From Sodalis ligni (GTDB lineage: Bacteria > Pseudomonadota > Gammaproteobacteria > Enterobacterales > Enterobacteriaceae), in NCBI RefSeq assembly GCF_016865525.2, contig NZ_CP075169.1:4278337-4342336 (forward strand): DNA of 64,000 nt. The letters run 5' to 3'. The first letter of the stretch is position 1. Every line of letters begins with the position of its first letter. The notes under the pieces were generated by a model. It had not been told where the DNA came from and did no database searches. It was given only the letters and a program-made list of their open reading frames with translations. Below, piece by piece: positions 279 through 18,993 of this stretch. Both the position numbers and the translations under genes were made by a program.

Positions 279-1130
279 TCACAATTTCGCCGGCGGAAGA
301 TGCGGTTCCTCCTGGCCGAACAGCGGTTTGACCACACCGTACAGCGCCGGGTTGTCGCTTTCATCCTTAAGCCCGATGCCCGATAAACGACGATGCCGGG
401 ACTGCTCCAGCAGCCACGCCAGCTTGAAGGCCGCCTGGGGATAATCCAACCCCTCGGGCCGGATATTGGAAATACAGTTGCGCTCCGATTCCAGGCGCCG
501 GGTATTGGGTCCCCAGGTAAAATAGATCCCCAGGCTGTCCGGCGAGGACAGGCCGGGGCGTTCGCCGATAAGTATCGCCACCGTTTTGGCCCGGAGGCAC
601 TCGCCGATGTCATCCCCCAATGCCACCCGCGATTGATGCGCCAGCACCACCGGCGCCGGCTTGAGGCCGAGGACAGCCAGATAGGGCAGCAATGCCCGGA
701 TAAACGGCACCGCCTGCCGGTGAACGGCCTTGGAAGATAGGCCGTCCCCCACCACCAGCAGCAGGTCGGCCTCTTTATCAGGATATTCCAGCAGCATTCG
801 CCGACTGTCATCGCCCAGCCTGCGGCCGAGATCGGGCCGGCATAAAAAAGTCTCCCGGCTAGTGGCCGCGCTGTGCACCGTCAGGGTAGTCAGGCCGTCC
901 GCCGCCAACCGGGCCGCCAGCGCCTCGCTATCGAAGGGTTGGTGCACCGCATCGCGGGCCTGGGCATGGGCCAGGCCGAACTTCAGTACTTCCCGCGTCG
1001 GCAGGCTGGCGCCGGCGCGGCCCAGGGCGATACGGGCCGCGGTGAATTCCCGCAGGCTTTCCCATGGATTATCGTGAATCACATTACCCACCGGAAATTT
1101 GCCGGCCAAGGGCGGATCGATTTTACTCAT
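279..1130 (-). CDS. eutC: Ethanolamine ammonia-lyase, small subunit
   Basis: This 283-residue protein is the light chain of the adenosylcobalamin-dependent lyase that splits ethanolamine into acetaldehyde and ammonia. The N-terminal half carries the family pattern TAARIALGRAGASLPTREVL, and the C-terminal half carries the conserved segments VAILIGERPGLSSPDSLGIY and CISNIRPEGLDYPQAA. The length is close to that of E. coli EutC (about 295). Its ATG overlaps the eutB stop by four bases (ATGA), so the subunits are translationally coupled. No microcompartment shell genes, reactivase (eutA) or aldehyde dehydrogenase are seen in the window, which fits the short, shell-less ethanolamine modules of many Proteobacteria. 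The fate of the acetaldehyde is not shown here. Confidence 0.95.
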   Translation of the reverse strand: MSKIDPPLAGKFPVGNVIHDNPWESLREFTAARIALGRAGASLPTREVLKFGLAHAQARDAVHQPFDSEALAARLAADGLTTLTVHSAATSRETFLCRPDLGRRLGDDSRRMLLEYPDKEADLLLVVGDGLSSKAVHRQAVPFIRALLPYLAVLGLKPAPVVLAHQSRVALGDDIGECLRAKTVAILIGERPGLSSPDSLGIYFTWGPNTRRLESERNCISNIRPEGLDYPQAAFKLAWLLEQSRHRRLSGIGLKDESDNPALYGVVKPLFGQEEPHLPPAKL

Positions 1131-2524
1131 AGCTCACTCCCGCCGCCCAGATGGGGTAAATGCTGCAATAGCGGATGCCGGCTGCCGGTATCGCGCAGCC
1201 GCCCGTCGGCATCGATGATTTGCATGCGTTTCAGCCAGTCGGAAAATTCCGGCGCGTGCTTGAGTCCGAGCAGTTCACGTATATACAGCGCATCGTGAAA
1301 CGACGTGCTCTGGTAGTTGAGCATAATATCGTCCGCCCCCGGCACGCCGATTAAAAAGGTCAGCCCGGCGGCCCCCAGCAGCGTCAGTAAGGTATCCATG
1401 TCATCCTGATCGGCTTCGGCATGGTTGGTGTAACAGACGTCGCACCCGAGGGGAACCCCCAGCAGTTTACCGCAGAAGTGATCTTCCAGCCCGGCGCGGA
1501 TGATCTGCTTGCCGTCATAGAGGTATTCCGGCCCGATAAATCCCACCACGGTATTGATCAGCAGCGGCTTGAAGCGCCGGGCGATGGCGTAGGCCCGTGC
1601 TTCGCAGGTCTGCTGATCGACACCGTGATGGGCATTGGCGGACAGGCAGCTGCCCTGCCCGGTCTCGAAATACATGACGTTATCACCCAGGGTGCCGCGC
1701 CGCAGGCTTAACGCCGCCTGCCTGGCCTCCTCCAGCAGTGCGAGGTTGATACCGAAGCCGGCGTTGGCCGCCTCGGTTCCGGCAATGGACTGGAAGACCA
1801 GATCCACCGGCGCCCCGCGCTCAATCAGCTTGATGGTATTGGTGACATGGGTCAATACGCATGACTGGGTGGGAATGGCGAAGTGGCTGATCACATCGTC
1901 GAGCATATAGTTGAGTTTTTCCAGCAGCGGCAGGCTATCGCTGGCCGGGTTGATACCGATTACCGCGTCGCCGCAGCCATACAGCAAACCGTCCAGCATG
2001 CTGGCGGCGATTCCTTTCAGGTCGTCGGTGGGATGGTTGGGCTGCAGCCGCACGCTCATATGGCCGGGTAGACCGATGGTATTGCGAAAGCGGGTGATCA
2101 CCCGGCATTTTTTCGCCACCAGAATCAAATCCTGGTTGCGCATGATTTTGCTCACCGCCGCCGCCATTTCCGGCGTTATGCCGGGCGCCACATAGGCCAG
2201 GCGGGCGCTGTCGGTGCGCTCGGATAGCAGCCAGTCGCGAAAATCCCCCACCGTCAGATGGGAAACCGGGGTGAACGCCTCCTCGTCATGGCTGTCGATA
2301 ATCAGGCGCGTGACCTCATCCTCTTCATAGGGGATCAGGGGTTGCTGCAAAAAAACGCGCAGCGGCAAATCCGCCAGCGCAATACGCGCCGCCATACGCT
2401 CTTCGGCGCTGGCGGCGGCAATCTCCGCCAGATAATCGCCGGAGCGCGGCGGCGACGCCTTGGCCATCAGGTCCCGTAAATCGGCGAAACGATAATGACG
2501 ATGGCCTAATGTGGCTTGAAACAT
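1127..2524 (-). CDS. eutB: Ethanolamine ammonia-lyase, large subunit
   Basis: This 465-residue heavy chain carries the TIM-barrel active site of ethanolamine ammonia-lyase. It is full length (E. coli EutB is about 453) and retains family stretches such as GLPGHMSVRLQPNHPTDD, YFETGQGSCLSANAHHGVDQ and FIGPEYLYDGKQI. The ATG at 2524 follows a strong GGAGGA ribosome-binding site. The gene lies 13 bases after the permease gene and overlaps eutC by four bases, so permease-eutB-eutC forms one transcription unit. The enzyme needs adenosylcobalamin; no cobalamin genes are visible in the window. Confidence 0.96.
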   Translation of the reverse strand: MFQATLGHRHYRFADLRDLMAKASPPRSGDYLAEIAAASAEERMAARIALADLPLRVFLQQPLIPYEEDEVTRLIIDSHDEEAFTPVSHLTVGDFRDWLLSERTDSARLAYVAPGITPEMAAAVSKIMRNQDLILVAKKCRVITRFRNTIGLPGHMSVRLQPNHPTDDLKGIAASMLDGLLYGCGDAVIGINPASDSLPLLEKLNYMLDDVISHFAIPTQSCVLTHVTNTIKLIERGAPVDLVFQSIAGTEAANAGFGINLALLEEARQAALSLRRGTLGDNVMYFETGQGSCLSANAHHGVDQQTCEARAYAIARRFKPLLINTVVGFIGPEYLYDGKQIIRAGLEDHFCGKLLGVPLGCDVCYTNHAEADQDDMDTLLTLLGAAGLTFLIGVPGADDIMLNYQSTSFHDALYIRELLGLKHAPEFSDWLKRMQIIDADGRLRDTGSRHPLLQHLPHLGGGSEL

Positions 2525-2537
2525 CGCTCCTCCCGGA

Positions 2538-3923
2538 TTACTCCGTTAACGTCAACTGTGCATCCGGCGCCGCCCGGTCGCGGGCGTGGCGGGTCAGGCG
2601 GAAATAAGCATAACCCAGCAGCATCATGACGGCGAAAATCATGAACAAGAGCTGGTTATAATAAATCATGGCCACCAGGCAGATGACCGCCATCACCAGC
2701 GCGAACGCCGGCGCCAGGGGGTACATGGGCGCCCGGAACGGCCGGGTCAGCCGCGGCTCCAGACGGCGCAGCCTGAATAGCGACGCCATGGAGATAATGT
2801 ACATCACAATAGCACCGAATACCGACATGGTGACGATGTTTGCCGTCAGGGGCTGGCCGCCGATAATAATCAGCGAATCGGAAAATATTGCCGCGATACC
2901 CACCACGCCGCCGGCGATAATGCCCCAATGGGGCGTGCGGAACCGGCGGTTGACCCTGGAGAGGGGTTTTGGCAGATAACCGGCGCGCGCCAGGGCAAAG
3001 ATCTGCCGCGAATAGCCCATGATGATACCGTGAAATGAAGCGATAAGACCGAACAATCCCAGCCACACCAGCATATGCAGCCAGCCGCTGCTGCCGCCGA
3101 CAATGATTTTCATCGCCTGGGGCAGCGGGTCGTTGATGTCGGCAAGCTTGGACCAGTCGCCGACGCCGCCGGCAAAGATCATAACGCCAAGAGCCAGCAC
3201 CGTCAGGGTTAAAATACCGCCGATAAATGCCCTTGGAATGGTGCGCTGGGGGTCTTTCGCTTCCTCCGCCGCCATGGACGCCCCTTCTATGGCTAAAAAG
3301 AACCAGATGGCAAAGGGAATGGCGGCGAAAATACCGGAAATCGCGCCGACGCTGAAGTGTTCCGCGCCGGCCCAGCCGCCGCGGGTAAAATTGGCAAAAT
3401 CGAATCCCGGCGCCACGACGCCCATAAAGACCAGCAGTTCGAATATGGCCAGCAACGTGACCAGCAGCTCAAAGGCGGCGGCGATACCGACGCCGAGTAT
3501 ATTGAGTATCATGAACACAACGTAGGCCCCCACCGCCACCCATTTGGGCTCCACCGCCGGAAACTGGACGTTGAGATAGGCGCCGATTGCCATGGCGATG
3601 GCCGGCGGGGCGAAAACGAATTCCACCAGGGTGGCGAAGCCGGCGATAAAGCCGCCGGTGGGGCCGAAGGCACGGTGGGCATACGCGAAAGGACCGCCGG
3701 CGTGGGGAATGGAGGTGGTCAATTCGGTGAAACTGAAAATAAAGGCGCAGTACATGGCGGCGATGGCCAGGGCGGTAATCAGGAACCCCAGCGTCCCCGC
3801 CTGGGCCCAGCCATAGCTCCAGCCGAAATACTCACCGGAAATAACCAGACCGACCGCGATACCCCAGAGATGAAAACTCCCCAGCGTGCGTTTCAGTCCG
3901 GGTACCGTTTTGTTGTTTTCCAT
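2538..3923 (-). CDS. Ethanolamine permease, APC superfamily (Eat-type)
   Basis: This membrane protein of about 461 residues has the amino acid-polyamine-organocation fold: about twelve hydrophobic segments, and an N-terminal helix region with GIAVGLVISGEYFGWSYGW. The motif GGPFAYAHRAFGPTGGFIAG is typical of the Eat/ethanolamine subgroup. It imports ethanolamine for the EutBC lyase encoded directly downstream. I chose the ATG at 3923 because AAAGGA sits seven bases upstream; an in-frame ATG at 3962 would fall inside the putative sigma-54 promoter. First gene of the eat-eutB-eutC unit. Confidence 0.9.
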   Translation of the reverse strand: MENNKTVPGLKRTLGSFHLWGIAVGLVISGEYFGWSYGWAQAGTLGFLITALAIAAMYCAFIFSFTELTTSIPHAGGPFAYAHRAFGPTGGFIAGFATLVEFVFAPPAIAMAIGAYLNVQFPAVEPKWVAVGAYVVFMILNILGVGIAAAFELLVTLLAIFELLVFMGVVAPGFDFANFTRGGWAGAEHFSVGAISGIFAAIPFAIWFFLAIEGASMAAEEAKDPQRTIPRAFIGGILTLTVLALGVMIFAGGVGDWSKLADINDPLPQAMKIIVGGSSGWLHMLVWLGLFGLIASFHGIIMGYSRQIFALARAGYLPKPLSRVNRRFRTPHWGIIAGGVVGIAAIFSDSLIIIGGQPLTANIVTMSVFGAIVMYIISMASLFRLRRLEPRLTRPFRAPMYPLAPAFALVMAVICLVAMIYYNQLLFMIFAVMMLLGYAYFRLTRHARDRAAPDAQLTLTE

Positions 3924-3957
3924 GGCGATGTCCTTTGATACGTAAGTATTTGTAAAT

Positions 3958-3974
3958 TGCAAAGGTCATACCAA
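3958..3974 (-). promoter_or_regulatory. Candidate sigma-54 (-24/-12) promoter for the ethanolamine operon
   Basis: Read on the minus strand the site is TTGGTATGACCTTTGCA. It keeps the invariant GG and GC pairs with exactly ten bases between them and matches 11 of the 13 defined positions of YTGGCACGRNNNTTGCW. Transcription would begin near 3947, leaving a leader of about 24 bases with AAAGGA before the ATG at 3923. Sigma-54 control would suit a nitrogen-source operon, but no activator-binding site was recognised. Established consensus plus inference. Confidence 0.5.
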
Positions 3975-4184
3975 TTTAGGCAATGATAAGACAACCGGCT
4001 GATTTAATAGAATTTTCAATATGATAATAGCATACTTCACCGTTTTGACCGTCGGGCGATAACAAGACCGCCCTGTTCCGGTGCGTCATTTTACCCTTAA
4101 CCAGCGTCAATGGCCTGCGGCGGTGCACGCAAAGCAAAGACGACCGTCGCCGCGCGGGGGATCAGCATGGTTCCCCCTTGCTGA

Positions 4185-5696
4185 TTACAGTTTTTCGGTA
4201 TCTTCCAGGGTGAAACGGCCCAGGGGATTTTGATCAAAATTCTTGATGTTCTTGCGGCTGACGTTGCGGTACGGGCTGTAAAGATCGATCCAGTTCACAT
4301 CCGCTTTCGCCATTTTTTGCAGATCGATGTACATCTGCTTGCGCTGGACCATATTCATTTCCACCCGGGCGGCGGCCACCAGGGCCTTCACCTTTTCATT
4401 ATGATAACGGGTCATATAGTTCATATTGGCGTCATGCCCCAGCACAAAGGTGGTCTTCTGATCGGGATCGAGAATATCGTTGGTCCAGTACATCACCGAA
4501 ATATCATATTCCCCCGCCACCAGCATGTCCCAGCTCTGGCTGGGATCGACTTTTTGCAGGTCTACCGTCACCCCGGCCTTTGCCAGTTGCTGTTGCAGCA
4601 GAATGGCAATCTGTTCATCCACCTCGTCGCCGGCGTTTACCACATATTTCAGCTTAAGGTCCGACGCCCCGGCGTCTTTGAGCATCTGTTTGGCTTTGGC
4701 CGGATCATAGGGGCGGCTGAGATTGTCGGCATAATGGTATAGCGCGCCCTCGGGAATATAGGAGTTGGCTATGGTGCCGAAACCGAAGGTGACGGTATCG
4801 ACAATGGCTTTTTTGTCGATGGCGAAATCCAGCGCCTGACGAACCTCTATCTTGCCCAGCGCGCCGTGCTCATGGTTAATCAGCAGATGGTCCTCGCGGG
4901 TTGAGCGATCCAGATGAACGTCCAGATTGGGATCTTTTTGCAGCGACGTAATGCGCGAGAATGGCACCGATAGGGCGGCATCCAGTTCCCCCGCCTGCAC
5001 CTTCAGCATACGGGTATTGTCATCCGGCAAGGTGAGCCACTCGACGCCATCCAGCTTGACGCGATCCGCCTGCCAAAAGTAGGGATTTTTCACCAGGACC
5101 ACTTTCTCGCCGCGGTTCCACTCCTTCACGCTGAAAGCCCCCGAGCCGACGGGTTTTTCCGCAAAGGCCTCCTCCCCCATGGATTTGACGATCTTTTCCG
5201 GCAGTACCGACACATTGGGCAGGGCCAGCTGCGACAGGAAAGGAGCCGACGGGGTTTTCAGCGTCACCACCAGCGTATGGGGATCCGGCGCTTCGGCTTT
5301 GTCGATGATGCTATAGGAATCGCGCCATAACGATCCTTCGTTGTCGCGAATGCGCAGCAGGCTGAATACCGCATCCTGGGCGGTCACCGGCGATCCGTCC
5401 GAAAATTTGGCGTCGCGTAGTTTAAAGGTATAGACCTTGCCGTCCGCGGAGATTTCCCAGCTTTGCGCCAGTCCCGGCTCCAGCCGGGTGCCGCTTTTAT
5501 CCACCCGCACCAGCACATCGAACACATTGGAGAATACCCAGTTATCGGCGTTTTGCGCCGACTTGATGGGATCAAAGGTGGTGCTGTCCTCGCGACGACC
5601 GATGGTGAGGACACCGGCGGCTTCGGCCAGCTGGCTTACCGCGCTCAGCGCCAGAAGTACCCCGGCGGCGACGATAGTAAAATGCTTACACTTCAT
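4185..5696 (-). CDS. Peptide-type ABC transporter periplasmic binding protein (SBP family 5)
   Basis: This 503-residue exported protein has a Sec signal peptide of about 26 residues (MKC..., hydrophobic core, cleavage near AEA) followed by the family 5 fold. Visible family features are the start TIGRREDSTTFDPIKSAQNA, the LAQSWEISADGKVYTFKLR block, the PVGSGAFSVKEWNRGEKVVL block and a late VRQALDFAIDKKAIVD segment. It would capture a small peptide or peptide-like amide in the periplasm and hand it to the permeases encoded upstream. It lies 11 bases after the second ATPase gene and is the last gene of the six-gene operon. The actual ligand cannot be read from the sequence. Confidence 0.92.
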   Translation of the reverse strand: MKCKHFTIVAAGVLLALSAVSQLAEAAGVLTIGRREDSTTFDPIKSAQNADNWVFSNVFDVLVRVDKSGTRLEPGLAQSWEISADGKVYTFKLRDAKFSDGSPVTAQDAVFSLLRIRDNEGSLWRDSYSIIDKAEAPDPHTLVVTLKTPSAPFLSQLALPNVSVLPEKIVKSMGEEAFAEKPVGSGAFSVKEWNRGEKVVLVKNPYFWQADRVKLDGVEWLTLPDDNTRMLKVQAGELDAALSVPFSRITSLQKDPNLDVHLDRSTREDHLLINHEHGALGKIEVRQALDFAIDKKAIVDTVTFGFGTIANSYIPEGALYHYADNLSRPYDPAKAKQMLKDAGASDLKLKYVVNAGDEVDEQIAILLQQQLAKAGVTVDLQKVDPSQSWDMLVAGEYDISVMYWTNDILDPDQKTTFVLGHDANMNYMTRYHNEKVKALVAAARVEMNMVQRKQMYIDLQKMAKADVNWIDLYSPYRNVSRKNIKNFDQNPLGRFTLEDTEKL

Positions 5697-5707
5697 GAAT
5701 CATTACC

Positions 5708-6721
5708 TCAGTCAAAAGGAACGGCCGCCTCGCCGGTATTTCTGTCCAGCACACAGGCAAAGGCATGATCGGCAAAATGCCGGGTTTCGGGTGTCGGACC
5801 GTGCCGGCACGACGGTCGGGCATAAGGACAGCGGGGATGAAATGCACATCCCGCCGGAATCGCAATGGGGCTCGGCGGTTCGCCGCCGAGGGGCTCCGCC
5901 GGCAGCGGCAGATCGGGGTCAATATCCGGGATGGCCGCCACCAGGGCGGCGGTATAGGGATGGCGCGGCAGGCTGAATACCTGTTCGGCGGGCCCCTCCT
6001 CCACAATCCGGCCCAGATACATCACCGCCACCCGGTCACACAGGCGGCGGACAATCGCCAGGTCATGGGCGATAAACAAAATCGCCAGCCCCATTTTTTC
6101 CCGCAGGTCCATCAGCAAATTAATGATTTGTCCCTGGATGGACACATCCAGCGCGGCGACGCACTCATCCGCCACCATCAGCCGGGGCTCCACGGCCAGG
6201 GCGCGGGCGATGCCGGCCCGTTGGCACTGCCCGCCGCTCAGGGCTCCGGGACGGCTGTCCGCCTGTTCGGGGGCCAATCCCACCAGGGCCAGCAGCTCGG
6301 ATACCCGCGCCGCAACGGCCGTCTCCGGCACCTTGCGGTGAACCCGCAAGACCTCGGCGATGGCCGCGCCAATGGTCTGGCGCGGATTGAGCGAGGCCAA
6401 GGGATCCTGGAAAATCATCGCCGTTTGCCGGCGCAGACGCTGTATATCGCTGGTCAAGCCATGGGTGACCTGAAGGCCGTCAAAGCGCACGGCGCCGCCG
6501 CTGCTTTTTTCCAGTTGCAGGATGGCACGGCCCAGCGTGCTCTTGCCGCTGCCGGACTCCCCCACCAACCCCAGGGTTTCACCGGGATAAATGCGCAATG
6601 AGACGCCGTTTACCGCATGGACCCGCGGCCGGTTCCAGCGCAGCGGATTGCCGCCGGACAGCGGGAAGGACACCTTGAGGTCATCCACCTCCAATAGCGG
6701 ATAAGGTTTGCCGGTCATCAC
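5708..6721 (-). CDS. Peptide-type ABC transporter ATPase (DppF/OppF-like)
   Basis: This 337-residue cytoplasmic ATPase has Walker A (GESGSGKSTLGR), Q-loop (QDPLASLNPRQT) and signature LSGGQCQRAGIARAL. The Walker B reads LMVADECVAALDVSIQGQII, with Cys in place of the usual Pro-Thr region (DEPTSALD in most homologues becomes DECVAALD). The C-terminal oligopeptide extension shows the CAFHPRCPYARPSC cysteine cluster seen in Dpp/Opp ATPases. It starts one base after the stop of the upstream ATPase, so the two are coupled and probably form the heterodimeric motor of this importer. Confidence 0.93.
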   Translation of the reverse strand: MMTGKPYPLLEVDDLKVSFPLSGGNPLRWNRPRVHAVNGVSLRIYPGETLGLVGESGSGKSTLGRAILQLEKSSGGAVRFDGLQVTHGLTSDIQRLRRQTAMIFQDPLASLNPRQTIGAAIAEVLRVHRKVPETAVAARVSELLALVGLAPEQADSRPGALSGGQCQRAGIARALAVEPRLMVADECVAALDVSIQGQIINLLMDLREKMGLAILFIAHDLAIVRRLCDRVAVMYLGRIVEEGPAEQVFSLPRHPYTAALVAAIPDIDPDLPLPAEPLGGEPPSPIAIPAGCAFHPRCPYARPSCRHGPTPETRHFADHAFACVLDRNTGEAAVPFD

Positions 6722-6722
6722 T

Positions 6723-7712
6723 TCACTCCTCCCACCGGGTTAACGGATAAAACGGCATATGGCAGGCGGCCTGATGCCCGGCATCGTCCCGCATCGGCAA
6801 CAGCGGCGGCTGCTCCGTCCGGCAGGCGCTAACGGACCTGGGACAGCGGGGATGGAAACGGCAACCTTGCGGGAAATTGTTTGCCGACGGCGGCTGGCCG
6901 ACAATGGTATTTAGCCGTCCGTCGCCACCGGTGCCGGTAGGCTGGCAATCAATCAATCCGCGGGTATAGGGATGCAGCGGCCGGCTCAATACCGACCGCT
7001 TGGCGCCGACTTCGCACAGCCGGCCGCCATACATCACCGCAATGCGATCGCAGGTCTGGGCGACGATGCCGAGATCGTGGGTGATCATGATAATGGCCAG
7101 GCCGAGGCGGTCGCGCAGATCCATCAGCAAGCGCAGAATCTGCACCTGTACCGTCACATCCAGGGCGGTGGTGGGCTCGTCGGCTATGAGGATTTGCGGC
7201 TCGCAGGACAATGCAACGGCAATCATCGCCCGCTGACGCATGCCGCCGGAAAATTCATGTGGATAGTGGTTAACCCGCCGCTGCGGATCCGGAATACCCA
7301 CCTGACGCAATAAATCCACGGCTTTTTCCCGCGACTCGCGGCCGCCGGCGCCAAAAAAGCGTCGGCGGCTTTCGGCGATTTGCTCGCCGATGGTCATCAC
7401 CGGATTGAGGTGGCTGGCCGGGTTCTGGAAAATCATCCCCAGCCGGTGGCCGCGAACGGCGGACATCCGCCTGTCGTCCAGGGTCATGATATCGGTCTGG
7501 CCAAGCCACACCTCGCCGCTTTCCTGAACCAGCCCTTCCCCCGGCAGCAGGCGCAGCAACGCACGGCAGGTAACGGTCTTGCCCGAGCCGCTCTCCCCCA
7601 CCAGCCCGAGCATCTCGCCGGCGCTGAGATCGAACGATACCCTATCCACCAAACGGATCCCCTGCCTGTTAACCACGGTCAGGTTGCGCACCCGGAGCAC
7701 CGGCGCCCTCAT
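6723..7712 (-). CDS. Peptide-type ABC transporter ATPase (DppD/OppD-like)
   Basis: This 329-residue ATPase is the partner of the DppF-like protein. Walker A reads GESGSGKTVTCR, the signature region FSGGMRQRAMIAVAL, and Walker B ILIADEPTTALDVTVQ; the H-loop segment is MITHDLG. The C-terminus carries the CRFHPRCPRSVSAC cluster typical of peptide importers. Its ATG overlaps the stop of the DppC-like permease gene by four bases. All catalytic motifs are intact. Confidence 0.94.
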   Translation of the reverse strand: MRAPVLRVRNLTVVNRQGIRLVDRVSFDLSAGEMLGLVGESGSGKTVTCRALLRLLPGEGLVQESGEVWLGQTDIMTLDDRRMSAVRGHRLGMIFQNPASHLNPVMTIGEQIAESRRRFFGAGGRESREKAVDLLRQVGIPDPQRRVNHYPHEFSGGMRQRAMIAVALSCEPQILIADEPTTALDVTVQVQILRLLMDLRDRLGLAIIMITHDLGIVAQTCDRIAVMYGGRLCEVGAKRSVLSRPLHPYTRGLIDCQPTGTGGDGRLNTIVGQPPSANNFPQGCRFHPRCPRSVSACRTEQPPLLPMRDDAGHQAACHMPFYPLTRWEE

Positions 7713-8554
7713 GGCCGTTCCCCCAGCTTATCGCCCAGTCCGTCCGCCAGCAGGCTAAAGCCCATGGCAAGCAGCACAATGGCCAGCCCGGGGAAAGCGG
7801 TAATCCACCAGGCGGTGGTAATGAAGCTTTGTCCTTCGGCGATCATCACCCCCCACTCCGCCACCGGCGGCTGCACGCCCAGACCCAGATAACTCACCGC
7901 CGCGCCGTTCAGCAGCACCAGGACGCAATCGGACATGGAAAACACCACGGAGCCGGTTAAGGCGTTGGGCAGCAGATGACGGAACAGGATGCGCCGGTGA
8001 CTGAAACCGAGGCTGCGGGCCGCCAGCATAAAATCGCTGTGTTTCAGGATCAGTACCTGCGAGCGCACCAGACGGGCATAAGAAACCCAGCCCACCAGCG
8101 CCATGGCAATATAAAAGCTGCCCAGTCCGGGGCCGATAATGGCAATGATCGACAACATCAGCACCAGGAAGGGAAACGCCAGCACAATATCGATGATGCG
8201 CATGATCAGGGCATCCAGCGGGCCGCCGGCATAACCGGCGACGGCCCCCGCCACCGTACCGATTAAAAACGGGAACAGCACGCCCACCAGGCAGATTTGC
8301 AGATCCACCCGCGCCCCCCAGATCACGCGCGCCAGGATATCGCGGCCAAAATTATCGGTGCCGAAGAGATGGGGCCAGCCGGGGGCCAGCAAACGGGCCG
8401 CCGGGTCCTGGTATTGCGGATCAAACGGCCCGACCCAGGGAGCCAGTATCGCCAGCAATAGCCAGAATGACAGCATGGCCATACCGACCCGCAGCGCGGT
8501 GGGTTTTGACAGCCACCGGCCCGGCAGATGCTGCAACGTCGCGGCAAGCGTCAT
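7709..8554 (-). CDS. Peptide-type ABC transporter permease (DppC/OppC-like)
   Basis: This 281-residue inner-membrane permease begins with the N-terminal helix and the conserved LAPWVGPFDPQYQDPAARLL region and FGTDNFGRDILARVIWGAR, the hallmark of DppC/OppC proteins. The inner-membrane coupling motif is YARLVRSQVLILKHSDFMLA. I set the start at the ATG at 8554, which overlaps the stop of the DppB-like gene (ATGA). A longer open frame extends upstream but runs through dppB out of frame and shows no family similarity. Confidence 0.93.
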   Translation of the reverse strand: MTLAATLQHLPGRWLSKPTALRVGMAMLSFWLLLAILAPWVGPFDPQYQDPAARLLAPGWPHLFGTDNFGRDILARVIWGARVDLQICLVGVLFPFLIGTVAGAVAGYAGGPLDALIMRIIDIVLAFPFLVLMLSIIAIIGPGLGSFYIAMALVGWVSYARLVRSQVLILKHSDFMLAARSLGFSHRRILFRHLLPNALTGSVVFSMSDCVLVLLNGAAVSYLGLGVQPPVAEWGVMIAEGQSFITTAWWITAFPGLAIVLLAMGFSLLADGLGDKLGERP

Positions 8555-9489
8555 AATTTCACCCTCGGGTCCAGCGCCACGGTCAGTAAATCCGCCAGCA
8601 GATTCACCGCCACGGTGGCCAGGGCAAATACCATCACCACCCCCTGCACGACCATATAATCGCGGCTGAAAATCGCCTTCACCAGCAGCTGTCCCATGCC
8701 GGGAATCGCAAATACGCTCTCGATGACCACGGTACTGCCGATAAGCCAGCCGATATTCACCGCCAGCAGGTTTACCGTGGGCACCAGGGAATTGGGCATC
8801 ACGTGGCGCCAGAAAATCCGCCCCTCTTCCTGACCGCGCGCCCGGGCGGCGGTGACGTAATCCGCTTTCAGCTCCGCCAGCAGGCTGGCGCGCAGATTGC
8901 GCGTCAGTACCGCCGACAGGGCTAGCGCCACGGTTAAACAGGGCAAGACCATATGATGAAGTTGTTCGAGCCAGTCGCTGCCGTAACCGGATACCGGAAA
9001 CCAGCCCAGCGTGACGCTGAACAGTAAAATCAGCATGATGCCGAGCCAGAAAGCCGGAAAACCCAGCCCGGCGGTGGACAGCAGCCGGATCAGCTGATCG
9101 GCTGCCTTGCCCCGTTGCCGGGCGGCCGCGGCCGCCAGCGGCACGGTCAGCAACAGCGCCAGCAGCACGCTGCCCAGGATCAGATACAGCGTCGGCTCGA
9201 TACGGGACAGAATCAGCTTGCCGGTATCGACACGGTAAACAATGGAACGCCCCAATTCTCCCTGCAGCAGGTTTTTCAGGAAATAACCGTATTGCACCCA
9301 CAGCGGCTGGTCGAGACCGTACTGTGCGCGAATACGGGCGATGGCCGCCGGCGTGCTGCGCACCCCCAGCAGGATCCTGGCGGGGTCGCCCGGAATGGCC
9401 CGTACCAGCATGAACGTGACGATGCTGATGCCCAGCAATACCGGTAGCAGTTGCAGCGGACGGAATAGGACAAATCGGTAACGATACAT
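8551..9489 (-). CDS. Peptide-type ABC transporter permease (DppB/OppB-like)
   Basis: This 312-residue permease opens with the typical DppB helix and RAIPGDPARILLGVRSTPAA, followed by YGLDQPLWVQYGYFLKNLLQGELGRS-like features. It contains a late coupling segment with LLAELKADYVTAARARGQEE and ends DPRVKL, as DppB proteins usually do. It forms the membrane channel with the DppC-like partner. It begins nine bases after the stop of the iminopeptidase-like gene, so hydrolase and transporter are probably co-transcribed from the lux-box promoter at 10483-10502. Confidence 0.93.
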   Translation of the reverse strand: MYRYRFVLFRPLQLLPVLLGISIVTFMLVRAIPGDPARILLGVRSTPAAIARIRAQYGLDQPLWVQYGYFLKNLLQGELGRSIVYRVDTGKLILSRIEPTLYLILGSVLLALLLTVPLAAAAARQRGKAADQLIRLLSTAGLGFPAFWLGIMLILLFSVTLGWFPVSGYGSDWLEQLHHMVLPCLTVALALSAVLTRNLRASLLAELKADYVTAARARGQEEGRIFWRHVMPNSLVPTVNLLAVNIGWLIGSTVVIESVFAIPGMGQLLVKAIFSRDYMVVQGVVMVFALATVAVNLLADLLTVALDPRVKL

Positions 9490-9498
9490 AGGATTGCC

Positions 9499-10398
9499 CT
9501 ACTCCCCGCCGCGGTTTTGCTGCCGGCGGAGAAAATCCAGCAACACCGGGTAATAGGCCTGCGGCTCTTCGTAGAACGGCATATGGCTGCTATTGGGGAA
9601 AACATGCAGTTCCGCCTGCGGCAAACCCTGTTTCATCCTCATGGCGCAGGCCGGGGTCAATTCGTCGTGCTGGCCGGTGGTTATCAGGCAGGGCACCTTG
9701 ATGGACGGCAAATCCGCCGTGCGGTTCCAGTCTTTTAGATTGCCGGTATACAGGAATTCATTGGGTCCCTGCATGGCGACATAGGGCGCCATGTTCCAGT
9801 CCGACAGCGATCGGGCAACGGGGGCCGGCCACTTATCGAGACGGCAGACGTGGCGATAGTTGAGCAGGGTAATGGCCGCTTGGTAGGCGGGATGTTCCAA
9901 GGTGCCCATGGCTTCATGCCTGAGCATCATCGCCACGGTCTCAGGCCCGAGGGAAGCCCGCAGACGATGTAACTCCTGGATGAGATGGGGCATATCCGCC
10001 GCGGTATTTTCCAGGATCAGGCTCTTGATTGCTTCGGGATGGTGCAAAACCACCTCAATACCCAGCCAGCCGCCCCATGAGTGACCAAGCAAATGCACCT
10101 TGCCCAGATTCAGTGCCTGCATGACGCTGTACACTTCTCGTACGTATCGCGCCATGTCCCACAAAGCCGGTACATCGGGACGATCGGATTGCCCGGTGCC
10201 CAATTGATCAAACGCCACCACCCGGTAGCCATGAAATTTCAGGCAGGAATGCGCCTCGCGCAGATAATCGCAGGGCAAGCCGGGGCCACCGTTCAGGCAC
10301 AGCACCACGTCGTCGCCTTCGCCGAATTCATAAGCCGCCACGTGGTAGCCGTCGACTGCGATCCTATGCTGTTTATCCGGTGCCAGTTCGCGCCACAT
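9499..10398 (-). CDS. Proline iminopeptidase-like alpha/beta hydrolase (first copy)
   Basis: This 299-residue cytoplasmic hydrolase has no signal peptide. The nucleophile elbow GHSWGG gives Ser107; Asp245 (GQHDEL) and His272 (SSHMPF) complete the expected triad. The oxyanion motif, normally HGGPG in the proline iminopeptidase family, reads NGGPG at 36-40. This family removes N-terminal proline or cleaves related amides. Homologous pip genes are the usual neighbours and targets of plant-responsive LuxR solos. The gene is first in the hydrolase-dppBCDF-binding protein operon and lies divergent from the luxR-type gene. The true substrate is uncertain; an amide other than a prolyl peptide is possible. 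Confidence 0.88.
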   Translation of the reverse strand: MWRELAPDKQHRIAVDGYHVAAYEFGEGDDVVLCLNGGPGLPCDYLREAHSCLKFHGYRVVAFDQLGTGQSDRPDVPALWDMARYVREVYSVMQALNLGKVHLLGHSWGGWLGIEVVLHHPEAIKSLILENTAADMPHLIQELHRLRASLGPETVAMMLRHEAMGTLEHPAYQAAITLLNYRHVCRLDKWPAPVARSLSDWNMAPYVAMQGPNEFLYTGNLKDWNRTADLPSIKVPCLITTGQHDELTPACAMRMKQGLPQAELHVFPNSSHMPFYEEPQAYYPVLLDFLRRQQNRGGE

Positions 10399-10482
10399 AC
10401 TTCCCTCCGGTATGATTTTCGTCGGCCAAAGCCGCGCCGTCCGATGTTTCTTTTACGCTACGCATAAGCCGCCGGGCTGAAC

Positions 10483-10502
10483 AGTTAGTAAAAATGCTAG
10501 GT
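10483..10502 (-). promoter_or_regulatory. lux-box-like operator of the hydrolase-transporter operon
   Basis: On the minus strand the site reads ACCTAGCATTTTTACTAACT. It is 18/20 identical to the element upstream of the second hydrolase gene (11387-11406) and has the size and ACCT/AGGT-like ends of a lux box. It lies 84 bases before the hydrolase ATG, in the divergent intergenic region shared with the regulator gene (ATG at 10615). It could therefore act on both directions. CTAG-containing dyads are rare in enterobacterial DNA, which makes chance recurrence unlikely. Confidence 0.7.
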
Positions 10503-10614
10503 TTCACCGGCGGCCGTGGCACCCTAATTGCATCATGCCCTCTACGGCAATACCGGGTTTGCACGATCCATGCCCGTCTTTTTACTCACGGGTGATTTCG
10601 TAAAGGGTGAACCA

Positions 10615-11373
10615 ATGAATATGATATTTGAAAAACCGGGACAAACGGCCCGGCAGCAGGACAGCCTTGATGCCGCCTTCGACGGCTTGTTTGCGCAAAG
10701 CGCCCGGCTGGGTATGGAAGCATTGATTTATGATTACACGCCGGTACCGCGCTCGCTGGAAGGGGAACTTATCACGCCGTCGCTGCTGCGTATGAGCAAT
10801 GTCCCGGCGGATATGGGGCGGTTGTGGTGTGAAAGCGGTTATTACCAGGTGGACCCGGTGCAATTGTATGCGCTGGATACCTGCGCGCCGTTTGTCTGGT
10901 CCTATCAGCGCCCCGATCGCACCTCGCTGCGCGGCATCATTAGCGAACGGCACCAGCCGGTGACCCATTACATGTGCGATAACAATATGCCCTGCGGCGC
11001 CACGGTGCCGCTGCACCTGCCCCGGGGCGGTTTCGGCACCCTTACCGGCATCGTTGGCCAGGCCGGCCATGAGCGCGATCTGTCCCATGTATTGGCGGAT
11101 TTAAGCCTGCTGGCGCATACCTTCCAGGAGCAGATTTATCCGCTGTTCGATCAGCAGATCCTGACCTGCCGTTTTGTCAGACTGACCAAACGGGAACGGG
11201 AATGCCTGAGCTGGTCAGCGGAGGGATTGACCGCCAAAGAGATCGCCCGCAAACTCTCCCGGTCTATTGCCACCGTTACCTTGCATCTCAATTCGGCGGC
11301 ACGCAAGCTGGGCGCCGGTAACCGGGTCCAGGCGGTGGTCAGGGCGATGCATTACCGGTTGCTGGACAGCTAA
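10615..11373 (+). CDS. LuxR-family 'solo' regulator, plant-associated (OryR/PsoR/PipR) type
   Basis: This 252-residue protein has an N-terminal autoinducer-binding domain (about 20-170) and a C-terminal GerE helix-turn-helix (about 185-248, LTKRERECLSWSAEG, ITVxxHLNSAARKLGAGNR pattern). Aligning the invariant Asp80-Pro81 (VDPV) and Trp95 with TraR Asp70-Pro71 and Trp85 puts Met67 and Trp71 where acyl-homoserine-lactone receptors have Trp57 and Tyr61. That Met/Trp swap is the signature of the plant-associated subfamily, which does not respond to ordinary AHLs. No luxI synthase is nearby, and the gene sits between two pip-like genes, again as in that subfamily. The ATG at 10615 is chosen for its AAGGG site; an upstream in-frame ATG at 10528 lacks one. 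Confidence 0.92.
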   Translation: MNMIFEKPGQTARQQDSLDAAFDGLFAQSARLGMEALIYDYTPVPRSLEGELITPSLLRMSNVPADMGRLWCESGYYQVDPVQLYALDTCAPFVWSYQRPDRTSLRGIISERHQPVTHYMCDNNMPCGATVPLHLPRGGFGTLTGIVGQAGHERDLSHVLADLSLLAHTFQEQIYPLFDQQILTCRFVRLTKRERECLSWSAEGLTAKEIARKLSRSIATVTLHLNSAARKLGAGNRVQAVVRAMHYRLLDS

Positions 11374-11386
11374 CCCCGCCGGCACA

Positions 11387-11406
11387 ACCTAGCATTTTTT
11401 CTAGCT
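11387..11406 (+). promoter_or_regulatory. lux-box-like operator of the second hydrolase gene
   Basis: The site ACCTAGCATTTTTTCTAGCT has half-sites ACCTAG and CTAGCT, which match as an inverted repeat at five of six positions with an eight-base spacer. It begins 14 bases after the regulator stop and ends 60 bases before the second hydrolase ATG. With the 10483-10502 copy it defines a two-member regulon that the LuxR-type protein plausibly controls. Confidence 0.72.
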
Positions 11407-11466
11407 ATCCCCCGGCGAGCGGGCTGTTTTACCCTAGGTTATCCCCGACCGACAGGTAAAACAGCC

Positions 11467-12366
11467 ATGTACAGCGTCACCGAAGGCTTTGCGCCATTTA
11501 GACAATACCAAACCTGGTACCGCATCTGCGGTGATCTCCATAACGGCCAGACTCCGCTGGTGGTGGCCCACGGCGGCCCCGGCTGCACCCATGACTATGT
11601 GGATGCCTTCCGCGATATCGCCGGCAGCGGACGGGCGGTTATCCATTACGATCAGTTGGGTAACGGACGTTCCACCCATCTGCCGGGGGCGGATCCCGCC
11701 TTTTGGCAAGTCGCGCTGTTTCTGGATGAATTGGATAACCTGCTGGACCATCTGGCCATCAAGGACAACTATGCGTTGCTGGGGCAGTCCTGGGGCGGCA
11801 TGCTGACGGCGGAACATGCGGTGCGACGTCCGGCCGGGCTGAAAGCGGCCATTATCGCCAACTCGCCGGCGTCGATGGAACTGTGGCTGCAGGCGGCGGC
11901 CCGTTTACGCGCCGGGTTGCCCGGCGAGGTTCAGGCCTGTTTATCGGCCCATGAGGCCGCCGGCACCCTGGACAGCGAAGAGTACCGCCAGGCCACCCAG
12001 GTATTTTATCAGCGCCACGTTTGCCGCCTGGCCCCCTGGCCCGAAGAGGTGAAACGCACGTTTACCGCCATGGATGAAGATCCTACGGTGTACCATGCCA
12101 TGAACGGACCGACGGAATTCCATGTCATAGGCACCATGAAGTCCTGGAGCATTATCCCGCGGCTGAACCGGATCCAGGTTCCCACCCTGTTGATATCCGG
12201 TCGCTACGACGAGGCGGCGCCGGAAGTGGTGCAGCCCTTTATGGATCATATTGCCGACGCCGAATGGGTCATTTTCGAGCACTCCAGCCACATGCCCCAT
12301 GTGGAGGAGCGCGCCGCGTGCATGGCGGCGATTAACGGTTTTCTCAGCAGACGCCTGGCGTCCTAA
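11467..12366 (+). CDS. Proline iminopeptidase-like alpha/beta hydrolase (second copy)
   Basis: This 299-residue hydrolase has the canonical proline-iminopeptidase oxyanion motif HGGPG (35-39), nucleophile Ser108 in GQSWGG, Asp248 (SGRYDE) and His275 (SSHMPH). Both copies share the later pattern [20 protein letters not shown] and [12 protein letters not shown], so they are related, but they are clearly diverged rather than a recent duplication. The gene stands alone behind its own lux-box-like element, co-directional with the regulator gene. It most resembles the pip gene normally linked to plant-responsive LuxR solos. The natural substrate is not deducible. Confidence 0.9.
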
Positions 12367-12485
12367 CACCAGGCCGGATGTATAGCCGCCCACCGGCGGC
12401 GCAAAATATTTACTCCCCCGCCCTACTTTCATCCTGTTCCCCGAAAGCGCATGATATTGCGCGCTGAACGGTGTGGACATCCCCC

Positions 12486-12917
12486 TTAATCCGGCCGGCA
12501 GGCCACAGATCCGGCAAGGCTTGCACAGGTGAGGGCAATCGATTGCGGACGTTCTCCCCGCCCGGTGGGCAGGATAACCTCGCTGCGGGTTTGCCAGGAT
12601 TGACCTTCGGCGCCGCACCAGATGCGCTGCACCGGCATCCGGTCCTGATGCTCGTTAAGGATAATCACTTCGCCGCTGGCGAGATTTTTCCATAGCGGCG
12701 CGGAGATTTTTTTGCCGGCCGCCACCCGGCCCAGATCCAGGGAATACCAGTGGGCGGTGGTAGCCTGGCAATCCAAGGGGGATGTGCCGCCATTGCCGAC
12801 GGTAAGTGAAAAAGGCAGCAGGCCCTGGGCGCCGCGCTGGCTTTCAGCCGGTTCACCGGCATAGATTGCGGTGGTGAAAAATAAAAAACAGGACAATACT
12901 AGCCCCTTTGCTTTCAT
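12486..12917 (-). CDS. Small secreted protein of unknown function, four cysteines
   Basis: I do not recognise this 143-residue protein. From the ATG at 12917, preceded by GAGG at a good distance, it starts MKAKGLVLSCFLFFTTAIYA, a clear Sec signal peptide with cleavage likely after YA-G. The mature part has four cysteines (near the PLDC, IWC, ALTC and VAC positions), which would allow two disulfides, and a lysine/tryptophan-rich middle. It lies alone on the minus strand between the second hydrolase and the divergent BMP-family operon, 96 bases from the latter. A periplasmic location is likely; no function is proposed. Confidence 0.6.
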   Translation of the reverse strand: MKAKGLVLSCFLFFTTAIYAGEPAESQRGAQGLLPFSLTVGNGGTSPLDCQATTAHWYSLDLGRVAAGKKISAPLWKNLASGEVIILNEHQDRMPVQRIWCGAEGQSWQTRSEVILPTGRGERPQSIALTCASLAGSVACRPD

Positions 12918-13013
12918 TGCATCCTCGTGTAAGAACTGGTCTGCCGGACGGAAAGCAACAGGAAAGAGCGTATTCGCTGCGTTGTCAATCATATTATTTA
13001 TTAAGGAAAAAGC

Positions 13014-14045
13014 ATGATGGTGAAGAGGTGGTTAAAATATGCAACCCTGGCGTCGGCCATGATAGCGGGGTGTCCGGCGACGTTCGCTGCGCAAATCAGT
13101 TCCATTGCGATATTAACCCCCGAACCCGGCACCGATTTCGTCTGGAATCAGCAGGGGATCGCCGCCGCCAAGGCGGCGGGCGCCAAAGAGGGCGTAAAAG
13201 TCCAGGTGGCGGAGAATCTCGGTTACGGCGATGTGCGGCCCACTCTGCGCGATTTGGCGGATGACGGGGCGCAGCTGATTATCGCCCATGCCAGCGGCTA
13301 CAACCAGGCGGCGCCGGAAATCGCGGCGCAAACCAAGATTGCGGTGGCGGTGACAGACAGCCCGTCGTCCCTGAAAGCCGGCAAAGTAGCGGACTATACC
13401 GTCAGCGGGCAGGAAGGAGCCTATCTGGCCGGCACCCTGGCGGCTAAAATGTCCCGCAGCGGCATTGTCGGCATCGTGGTGTCCGGCGAACCGCCCGCCT
13501 GGAACGCTCAGGCCACGGCGTTTATCCTGGGGGCCCGTGCGGCCAGGAAAGACATCAAAATCCGCTATGCGGTCATCGGCCCGGCGGCCTACAGCGATGC
13601 CGCCGGCGGCAAGCGGGTCACGGCATCGGTTATTGCCGCCGGAGCGGATATCATCTTCGGCCAAGGCAACGGTTCCAGCTTCGGCATGCTGCAAGCGGTG
13701 GAAACCACCCCGGCGGCGGACGGCGGTAAAGTCTATTTCATCGATGTGGTGGGCGATAAATCCAGCATTGATAAAGGCAATCTGCTCAGTTCGGTATTAT
13801 GGAATTTAACGCCGGTCTTCACCGCCATGATTGAAGACCTCAAGCAGGATAAATTCGGCACCCACAACTATAAAACCTCCCTGGCGGACGGCTCTATCAG
13901 TCTGTTGAAAACCAAACATATCCCCGAGGACATCTGGCAAAGCGTCAATCAGGTGCGCGACGAGATAATCAGCGGGAAAATCACCGTACCGGCGGATTAC
14001 GACGCTAAAACGCTACACGACCTGCTGGCGGCAAAAAGCGAATAG
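13014..14045 (+). CDS. BMP-family ABC transporter substrate-binding protein
   Basis: This 343-residue exported protein has a signal peptide ending ATFAA and the basic membrane protein (PnrA/Med) fold. Visible features are the first strand AILTPEPGTDFVWNQQG, the IIAHASGYNQAAPEIA block, VSGQEGAYLAGTLAAKMS and the IIFGQGNGSSFGMLQA segment. Family members bind nucleosides or related ligands and feed a permease pair like the one encoded downstream. It is the first gene of the binding protein-ATPase-permease-permease operon. AAGGAAAAAGC precedes the start. Confidence 0.9.
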   Translation: MMVKRWLKYATLASAMIAGCPATFAAQISSIAILTPEPGTDFVWNQQGIAAAKAAGAKEGVKVQVAENLGYGDVRPTLRDLADDGAQLIIAHASGYNQAAPEIAAQTKIAVAVTDSPSSLKAGKVADYTVSGQEGAYLAGTLAAKMSRSGIVGIVVSGEPPAWNAQATAFILGARAARKDIKIRYAVIGPAAYSDAAGGKRVTASVIAAGADIIFGQGNGSSFGMLQAVETTPAADGGKVYFIDVVGDKSSIDKGNLLSSVLWNLTPVFTAMIEDLKQDKFGTHNYKTSLADGSISLLKTKHIPEDIWQSVNQVRDEIISGKITVPADYDAKTLHDLLAAKSE

Positions 14046-14099
14046 CCCTGTTGCGGAACGTGCCATCCGCCGCGCTCCGGCCAATTAACAAAAGAGAGC

Positions 14100-15798
14100 A
14101 TGATGAGCCAGAACCTGCCGGCAACGGCATCTCCCGTTGTGACCGTCCATCGGCTCACCAAGCGATTCCCCGGTATCGTCGCCAATGATGGCATCGATTT
14201 GGCGTTATGGGCCGGGGAAGTGCACGTGCTGCTGGGAGAGAACGGCGCCGGCAAATCCACCCTGGTGGCGATGCTGGCCGGTTTGCAACGGCCGGATGAG
14301 GGCCATATCGCCGTTAATGGCCGGAAAGAAGTCCTACACTCCCCGCGCCGGGCGCTGGCGCTGGGGATCGGCACGGTATTTCAGCATACCATGATGGTGC
14401 CCGGTTTAAGCGTGGTGGACAACATTGCCCTGGGCGATCCCTGGTGGCGGCGGCCGGCCCGCGGTTTTTACGCCGGCCGGGTCGGGCAGATAGCCCGGGA
14501 TATCGGGGTGCGGGTAAACCCGTTCGCCCTGGCGGGGTCGCTGTCGCTGGGAGAGCAGCAGCAGGCGGAGATCGTCCGCTCCGTGCTGCGGGGCAGTCGG
14601 GTACTGATACTGGATGAGGCCACCGCCATGCTGACGCCGAAGAACGCCGATGAACTGGGTCAACTGATGCGGCGGCTGGTGGCGCAGGGTCTGGCGGTGG
14701 TGTTTATTACCCATAAGCTTAACGAGGCCCTGGCCTGGGGCGACCGGATATCGGTGCTGCGCCGGGGACGCAAGGTGGGAGAAATCCCGCCTCAGCGCCT
14801 GAAAAACCTGCCCCCGCAACAGGTCACCGGCGAAGTGATGCAACTGATGTTCAATTTATCCGCCGATGACGGCGACACTACCCCTGTTGGTTCTCCCTCG
14901 AGTACCGGGAACGGTGCAATCCTTGACGGCTCCTCGGCAAATGAGATGCCGACTGCTGCAAGCCGCCTCGCGGCCATCGGGAACGATGATACCGCTTACG
15001 ACGCGCGCGCCGGGAAAAATGCCGATACCAAGGACACATTCGACGTCCATGTCGCCGCCGGGCCGGTGCTTGCAGTCCAGGCACTGGCGGTGAACGATGC
15101 GTTGGTTCCCCTGAGGGACATTAATCTTGAGGTGGCCGCCGGGGAAATCGTCGGCATTGCCGGTATTGACGGCAACGGACAAAAACAGCTGGCGGAGGCG
15201 CTGGCGGGTCAGCGCCCTGGCCGGCGGCCGGATTTTGCTGGCGGGGAAGCCATTGAACAGCTAAGCATCGGCCAGCGGCGCAAGCTCGGCCTGCGATATG
15301 TCACCGACGATCGGCTGGGTGAAGGCACCGTGGGGTGTTCCCGGTGTCTATCAACCTGCTGTTGAAACAAATAGGCGAAGCGCCTTTCTGGCGACGGGGC
15401 ATTGAACAGCCGGAGGACATAGCCCGCCATGCTCGTGAGCGTATTGCCGAATATGATATCCGCACCCCGGGAGTTGATACCCCATCGGCAAATTATCCGG
15501 CGGCAATATTCAGAAAGCGCTGCTGGCCCGGGAACTCGGCGGCCCGGCCCGGATGGTAATATTTGCCAAACCCACCCACGGACTGGACGTACGGAATATG
15601 ACGGCGGTCCGCGAGCGGATACGCCGGTCGGCCCGCGCCGGAATGGCGGTCATTCTGATCTCCACCGATATGGAGGAGTTACTGGGGCTGGCGGACCGCA
15701 TCGGGGTGATGTCCGGCGGCAGAATTGTCGGCATGGTGGCCAAGGGACCCCGCGCCCGCAGCCAAATCGGCGAACTGATGAGCGGAATAACGCTATGA
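14100..15798 (+). pseudogene. Nucleoside/sugar-type ABC ATPase (two-domain), frameshifted
   Basis: The first domain is intact: Walker A GENGAGKSTL, signature LSLGEQQQAEIVRSVL, Walker B VLILDEATAMLTP. The second domain is broken. The first frame ends at 15365, sense continues in a second frame to about 15480 (FPVSINLLLKQIGEAPFW...) and in a third to 15798 (FAKPTHGLDVRNM...). Each shift fits one missing base in a run of five (G near 15332, C near 15480); the second restores the signature LSGGNIQK. Within the first frame, 15219-15258 reads sensibly only one frame over (LAGGRILLAGKP), implying a compensating insertion and deletion. The stop overlaps the next gene (ATGA). Real decay or consensus errors cannot be told apart here. 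Confidence 0.82.
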
Positions 15799-17824: not shown

Positions 17825-17913
17825 GGCAAGGGGAGTTGCGGGCACTGAGACGCCGTATTCATTGCAGGGTCGCGGCTCGGTTTTTCACCGTACATTGTCT
17901 GCCGCAATTTAAT

Positions 17914-18828: not shown

Positions 18829-18835
18829 TATGCTT

Positions 18836-18853
18836 ATCTCGAATATTAGAGAT
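18836..18853. promoter_or_regulatory. Inverted repeat at the LysR gene start
   Basis: ATCTCGAATATTAGAGAT has five-base perfect arms (ATCTC/GAGAT) around an AT-rich centre. It lies 7 bases from the LysR start codon and overlaps its probable ribosome-binding site. A position like this suits autorepression and control of the divergent MFS gene. It does not show a clean T-N11-A spacing. Confidence 0.4.
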
Positions 18854-18993
18854 GAAAATCTTACGCTTGATTCATATTAGTATCAACCTTACCTTGAATG
18901 GGCGACGTTTGACGCTGCCTGGGGGTGCAAATAGACCCTCTTTAACAATACGGATTCATAACGGTTTTCAGCCATTCCTTAGGACACAATAGT

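Follow-up and report, generated by a model that had tools for sequence, protein, structure and literature searches.

A plant-responsive-type LuxR solo cassette beside a short ethanolamine locus in Sodalis ligni: two modules with sigma-54-type promoters

In a stretch of 64,000 nucleotides of the Sodalis ligni genome (assembly GCF_016865525.2, contig NZ_CP075169.1, positions 4,278,337 to 4,342,336 of the forward strand; hereafter the window, whose first letter is position 1), the gene of a LuxR solo stands in a cassette with two iminopeptidase-family genes (pip1 and pip2) and a peptide-type importer, and this cassette adjoins the genes eat, eutB and eutC for the uptake and cleavage of ethanolamine. 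The cassette is a known Pip/PAB system (PAB, plant-associated bacteria) and eat-eutBC is the known 'short' eut locus. Our analysis suggests that the two modules lie behind one kind of gate: the sensor and ethanolamine catabolism would share sigma-54 control, and the cue of the sensor would control import and the peptidases. We consider this reading fairly probable.

Sigma-54-type promoters of luxR and eat

The -24/-12 form of sigma-54 promoters, a type often employed when nitrogen is scarce, fits both TGGTATGACCTTTGCA, which precedes eat (3958..3973, minus strand), and TGGCACCCTAATTGCA, which precedes luxR (10517..10532, plus strand). Both are pattern matches, and the element at 3958-3973 is a putative promoter. 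The pattern TGGYAYN5TTGCA has exactly two matches in the 64 kb, namely these two, where 0.19 would be expected; two matches were reached in 2 of 100 shuffles.

For the loci of relatives the wider pattern [CT]GG[CT]A[CT]N5TTGC[AT] was used. It lies upstream of luxR in 21 of 23 loci and, for the search of the family, in 19 of 23. Of 39 loci made non-redundant by merging those that share 200 identical bases, 33 have it, and 37 of 43 when only identical strings are removed; the rows are related sequences and the proportions not independent trials. The background of this pattern is 253 in 20000 random 450-base segments of the collected loci (1.3%). Upstream of eat the pattern was present in all 14 loci holding an eat gene, including two congeners without an adjacent cassette and members of other genera, a count which omits five loci where no eat gene could be detected next to eutB (L090, L091, L093, L094 and L098; loci are numbered with L and genomes with G). 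In addition, a gene for RpoN was found in the genome. Taken as a feature of the sequence, sigma-54 control of luxR and eat is well supported.

The most likely start codons are that at 3923 for eat and the ATG at 10615 for luxR, the latter being preferred because the longer version with a TTG start overlaps the promoter. Between this promoter and the start codon, many loci of the series L008-L048 contain a conserved element like TTTGCAnnATCCATGCCCG in the luxR leader (window 10558-10576).

The short eut loci of Klebsiella pneumoniae and Pseudomonas aeruginosa likewise consist of eat, eutB and eutC with a -24/-12 promoter (PMC11101070, PMC5821096; statements taken from papers cited by such numbers refer to the parts of their text that were available). 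In K. pneumoniae the locus is NtrC-dependent, has RpoN and NtrC sites, and an rpoN mutant does not grow on ethanolamine as nitrogen source; in P. aeruginosa RpoN acts with EatR (same sources). The locus in the window resembles that of K. pneumoniae in that the frames next to eat-eutBC, read by eye with no profile scan, showed no dedicated regulator gene and none that is EatR-like. It differs from that of P. aeruginosa in that the operon contains no acetaldehyde dehydrogenase gene, and from both in adjoining a LuxR solo cassette. NtrC is a candidate only for the sigma-54 activator here. Dyads fitting at least 11 of the 12 NtrC positions were present upstream of luxR in 4 of the 39 non-redundant regions, and dyads fitting at least 10 in 11 of 39, against 95 and 553, respectively, of 20000 random segments. 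A literature search, mostly of titles and with most subscription journals outside it, gave no report of RpoN or NtrC control over such LuxR solos.

LuxR boxes

The box CTAGCATTTTTNCTA, a pattern derived from these very loci, has two matches at up to 3 mismatches in the window. Both are exact: CTAGCATTTTTACTAA belongs to the pip1-importer operon (10485..10500, minus strand, centred 94.5 bp upstream of the pip1 ATG) and CTAGCATTTTTTCTAG to pip2 (11389..11404, plus strand, centred 70.5 bp upstream of the pip2 ATG). These centres lie within 3 bp of those in Pseudomonas sp. GM79, where the boxes are at -91.5 for aapA and -71.5 for pipA (PMC4981722). Both cassette boxes were present in ten of ten genomes, i.e. 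that of the window and nine others, at 2 mismatches, and no LuxR box was found near eat, neither in the window at 3 mismatches nor in the ten genomes at 2. The total of box hits per genome was lower than with a reversed-pattern control in all ten.

The placement of the boxes suggests that the importer and the hydrolases of the cassette are under the control of the sensor. An earlier note on this DNA, made from the sequence without database searches, had inferred that the cluster joins sensing, import, amide cleavage and catabolism of the released ethanolamine. The PAB/OryR-type regulator with pip genes, the GM79-like importer and the complete eat-eutBC set have stood up. Control of ethanolamine catabolism by the regulator is not supported: a LuxR box was found at each pip promoter and none was found at eat, which has a sigma-54-type promoter of its own. 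Direct LuxR control of eutBC was set aside as the main reading because the search gave no LuxR box at eat in the window or in the nine other genomes.

For Kosakonia a pip box has been proposed at -19 to -39 (PMC7301841). This position looks poorly conserved across the loci compared (window 11389-11467), where CTAGCATTTTTGCTAG, about 70 bp before pip2, is conserved, and the published position may need revision. A further arrangement is seen in four loci (L115-L118), in which two LuxR boxes stand in tandem before luxR in place of the sigma-54 pattern; these four genomes gave no EutB match.

The LuxR solo and its known relatives

The luxR gene (10615..11373, plus strand) encodes 252 aa with an Autoind_bind domain (PF03472, 80 bits) and a GerE domain (PF00196, 59 bits), both above cut-off. 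Met67 and Trp71, which had been read correctly from the sequence, are counted from the ATG at 10615 and correspond to TraR positions 57 and 61, the PAB substitutions Met and Trp thus being present; their aligned columns are those of W60 and Y64 of LasR. In an alignment of 18 proteins, position 67 is Trp in five Pseudomonas proteins and Met in the enterobacterial, Xanthomonas and rhizobial ones. The earlier statement that no luxI lies close to luxR was borne out genome-wide: an open luxI-type frame lies at 5239456, about 0.95 Mb from luxR, and another, split over two frames, is about 3 Mb or more away. The adjacent pip gene, pip2 at 11467, has its inverted-repeat box centred at -70.5. The luxR product is a PAB/OryR-type LuxR solo by its sequence, with a putative response to a plant compound.

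The Met/Trp pocket, the adjacent pip gene and the lack of a cognate luxI are shared with OryR, XccR, NesR and PsrR (PMC10134790, PMC7301841). To these the window adds the linkage to eutBC and the sigma-54 promoter, neither of which is mentioned for those solos in the available parts of the two papers. Beside the oryR gene of Xanthomonas lies an APC-family transporter (PMC4981722).

The layout of the cassette is that of the PipR/AapA-F/PipA system of Pseudomonas sp. GM79, in which a hydrolase and five importer genes are divergent from luxR and a second hydrolase (PMC4981722). As in GM79, the window has a five-gene peptide-type importer with an AapF-like solute-binding protein in one operon with a hydrolase, and this binding protein is 71% identical to AapF. 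It differs from GM79 in having Met67 instead of the pocket Trp at TraR position 57 (the residue of GM79 PipR itself being taken from PMC7301841), in the neighbouring eat-eutBC, and in the sigma-54-type promoter of luxR, the GM79 promoter itself lying outside this comparison.

The analogy with PipR drawn in the earlier note is weakened as regards the ligand, for position 67 is Met here and Trp in the five Pseudomonas homologues, and PsrR, with the same Met/Trp pair, responded neither to ethanolamine nor to N-(2-hydroxyethyl)-2-(2-hydroxyethylamino)acetamide (HEHEAA) (PMC7301841). AapF is reported to import HEHEAA, and a close homologue of AapF from a different species is unable to bind it (PMC10134790). 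PipR also responds to Ser-His-Ser and to peptone, both GM79 peptidases cleave aminoacyl substrates, and mutants in these peptidases respond too strongly, as would be expected if the cue were broken down by them (PMC4981722).

Distribution and history of the linkage

The importer-luxR-pip2 cassette is widespread and occurs in Rahnella, Brenneria, Hafnia, Prodigiosinella, Rhodoferax and others, and on plasmids of Klebsiella, Rhizobium and Neorhizobium. Its pip1 is of full length in the window, in L008, in L011 and in three plasmid loci (L048-L050), and is split over contig ends in L083/L084. In L010 (Acerihabitans arboris) it is broken (9460-9723), while the linked cassette is otherwise retained, as is eat-eutBC. 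Next to luxR no pip1 turned up in the loci of Rahnella, Hafnia, Prodigiosinella and Rhodoferax, and three of the four Trabulsiella loci (L021, L022 and L024) gave no importer gene.

Within the window's genus the importer and eat-eutBC are contiguous in four of six genomes, namely that of the window (G000), G628 (L008), G632 (L010) and G631 (L083). In the first three luxR is on the same contig; in G631 it lies on another contig ending in pip1 (L084), and the join is inferred. G630 has both modules on different contigs and a more distant LuxR (68%), and G629 has the eut genes but gave no luxR match. Outside the genus, 16 family genomes hold both genes, in no case closer than 20 kb on one contig: in nine they are on different contigs and in seven on one, the two smallest distances being about 28 kb (G719) and 216 kb. 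Adjacent modules were found only in the window's genus; in the rest of the family the two tend to occur in one genome but at separate places. The earlier note had named absence of the linkage from all relatives as evidence that would refute it; congeners do share it, but it was seen in one genus only.

The EutB of G629 is 97% identical, and synteny holds on both sides of the cassette site: the G629 locus L080 matches window 317-3987 and 12409-14949, and where the window has the cassette stretch of about 8.4 kb (3988 to 12408) this locus has about 320 different bases. In Rahnella and G630 eat adjoins the counterpart of the sequence from window 20205 on, which places the eut locus at this chromosomal site with no cassette beside it. 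In a tree of eat and eutB, G629 and the window form a pair with support 100, within a genus in which three other members carry the cassette, and for this reason loss of the cassette in G629 is the simplest reading. The two trees made place G630 differently and so imply no single number of gains and losses. A second block (window 12409-20204) separates the cassette from the older flank and is missing at the same site in G630 and the Rahnella loci; by eye it contains a BMP-type binding protein, ABC genes, a LysR regulator and a transporter.

The survey of genomes for regulator and eutB together, which the earlier note had proposed, covered 392 family genomes, own included, with luxR accepted at E up to 1e-60 and short-type EutB at 78% identity or more; the background includes genomes of 0.5-2 Mb. 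luxR was found in 30 and short-type EutB in 72 (four of them partial matches). Genomes with short-type eutB are enriched in luxR: EutB was present in 20 of the 30 luxR genomes and in 52 of the 362 others (Fisher 1.2e-9, kinship ignored) and, by genus, in 10 of 14 luxR genera against 14 of 140 others (Fisher 8.8e-7, kinship likewise ignored). No linkage of eutBC to such a regulator had been known to the author of the earlier note, and none surfaced in the literature searched, the key PNAS papers (Coutinho 2018, Luo 2021) being outside the search. No paper pairing LuxR solos with ethanolamine ammonia-lyase was found either, most subscription journals likewise being outside it.

Interpretation and alternatives

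We propose that in the Pip module a small cue of plant or peptide origin would enter the cell through the importer and be bound by the LuxR solo, which would activate pip1-importer and pip2, so that more cue would be imported and then degraded. In the short eut module eat-eutB-eutC would take up ethanolamine and split it into acetaldehyde and ammonia. Both luxR and eat-eutBC would be made when nitrogen is scarce, most likely via NtrC. The plant sensor and the ethanolamine nitrogen pathway would in this way be deployed together, and the cue alone would not induce eutBC.

A broader form of this idea is held more tentatively, at somewhat less than even chances: across Enterobacterales the plant-responsive LuxR solo may belong to the RpoN (probably NtrC) regulon of nitrogen limitation and form an AND gate, in which the receptor would be produced only under nitrogen shortage and the cue would then lead to import and cleavage of an ethanolamine-type amide; in the window's genus, with the ethanolamine genes adjoining, this would amount to a plant-sensing nitrogen-scavenging island. 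Some plant-responsive LuxR solos are silent in reporter tests, for reasons called unknown, and the authors of the Kosakonia PsrR study suggested that psrR itself may be regulated and its expression possibly too low (PMC7301841). A conserved sigma-54-type promoter before luxR solos could explain a sensor that is silent in laboratory tests. If true, plant sensing would be tied to nitrogen hunger and ethanolamine use, giving a reason for the puzzling iminopeptidases.

Several observations weigh against the shared gate. The two rhizobial plasmid luxR genes examined (L049, L050) are without the sigma-54 pattern, as are all four genomes of one enterobacterial genus at luxR (L115-L118); these six account for the loci lacking it among the 39 non-redundant ones. 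No NtrC dyad above background was found in the window, the best fits being 8 of 12 positions at luxR and 9 of 12 at eat. Ten of the 30 luxR genomes, spread over four genera, are without short-type eutB, and the co-occurrence is uncorrected for kinship. The number of boxes at three mismatches is at chance level (2 found, 2.82 expected), and the box argument therefore rests on exactness and position. The other genomic box hits at 2 mismatches are indistinguishable from chance, so further LuxR targets are possible. Finally, transcription may read through from the importer into eat, because the evidence for a terminator between them is weak: the two lie on the same strand with a gap of about 260 bp (between 4185 and 3923), in which searches for terminator-like sites and folds gave no clear terminator. 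Two weak terminator-like sites were found with 0.9 expected, and the gap folds no more stably than shuffles in three of four species, 13 of 200 shuffles being as good in the fourth.

Among the alternatives, the one that survives best concerns the cue. The LuxR-Pip part may be a peptide scavenger to which ethanolamine is irrelevant, a view that we give a substantial, if less than even, chance. It agrees with the importer being of the peptide type, with hydrolases of iminopeptidase families, and with the response of PipR to Ser-His-Ser and peptone and the aminoacyl substrates of the GM79 peptidases, but it sits poorly with the reported import of HEHEAA by AapF.

It is rather less likely that the two modules are neighbours by chance, an ordinary eut locus of one genus having received a Pip cassette next to it without any functional link. 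That the linkage was seen in a single genus speaks for such an event, as do the cassette-free eut locus at this site in Rahnella and G630 and the eut genes that G629 keeps without a cassette. Against it stand the sigma-54-type promoters at both modules and the enrichment of luxR among genomes with short-type eutB.

Least probable, in our view, is a full pathway in which LuxR senses an ethanolamine-derived amide that is imported, cleaved by Pip and consumed through eat-eutBC, the latter being raised by read-through from the pip1-importer operon. The short same-strand gap with its weak terminator-like sites and the identity of the binding protein to the HEHEAA-binding AapF are in its favour, as is the over-response of the GM79 peptidase mutants. 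By our own chemical reasoning, HEHEAA could plausibly be a substrate from which an iminopeptidase frees ethanolamine, for its acyl part, an N-substituted glycine, resembles proline in being a secondary amine. Against the pathway stand a separate conserved sigma-54-type promoter at eat, where no LuxR box was found, a Met67 pocket unlike the Trp67 of the aligned Pseudomonas homologues, the unresponsive PsrR, the AapF homologue that does not bind HEHEAA, and the broken pip1 of the linked relative L010.

Gene layout of the window

The window is part of a single 6.44 Mb contig and starts at its position 4278337. All genes named in the earlier note, including an iminopeptidase-family gene on each side of luxR, were found by profile matches; the range quoted there omitted eutC, and the true span of the locus is 279-12366. 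In detail, the minus strand carries pip1, permeases B and C, the OppD- and OppF-type ATPases, the binding protein, eat, eutB and eutC in this order, and the plus strand luxR followed by pip2.

The hydrolase pip1 (9499..10398, minus strand; TIGR01250, 261 bits, cut-off 168) stands at the position of GM79 aapA and pip2 (11467..12366, plus strand; TIGR01250, 260 bits, cut-off 168) at that of pipA. The importer genes, all on the minus strand, encode permease B (8551..9489; PF00528, 140 bits), permease C (7709..8554; PF00528, 101 bits, and PF12911, 27 bits), the OppD-type ATPase (6723..7712) and the OppF-type ATPase (5708..6721), both with PF00005 and PF08352, and the AapF homologue, a periplasmic binding protein of solute-binding protein family 5 (4185..5696; 775.9 bits to PDB 7kz8/7kz9, 338 of 477 residues identical). 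Also on the minus strand follow the ethanolamine permease gene eat (2538..3923; TIGR00908, 645 bits, cut-off 382), eutB for the large subunit of ethanolamine ammonia-lyase, of the short-locus type (1127..2524; PF06751, 740 bits; NF011649, 739 bits, cut-off 554), and eutC for the small subunit (279..1130; PF05985, 302 bits; NF003971, 320 bits, cut-off 230). The eutB product shows 91-97% identity within the window's genus and about 50% when compared with the family's other EutB type. The three genes are grouped without shell genes, judging from flanking frames read by eye with no shell-protein scan.

Further observations

Searches for comparison loci of Xanthomonas and Pseudomonas were of little yield: class-wide the own genome was the sole match among 369, order-wide there were 2 matches in 247, and two scans of viral contigs with Pseudomonas and Xanthomonas LuxR proteins gave no relative. 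PF20410, used as a marker of Xanthomonadaceae, had no match in 143 genomes, nor in the controls.

Some genomes have two PAB-type LuxR genes (G816; L020 and L022). A luxI-like gene in two frames (G000:C1:821864-822264) lies next to a LuxR-type gene at 822575 and is perhaps part of a decayed pair for acyl-homoserine-lactone signalling. Genome G655 (49% completeness) contains fragmented copies of eat-eutBC and of the Pip cassette (L096, L097) about 243 kb apart. In L079 an open frame of four to five near-identical repeats of about 57 residues (4002-4784) lies beside a gltX-like gene, and possibly represents tandem non-coding repeats.

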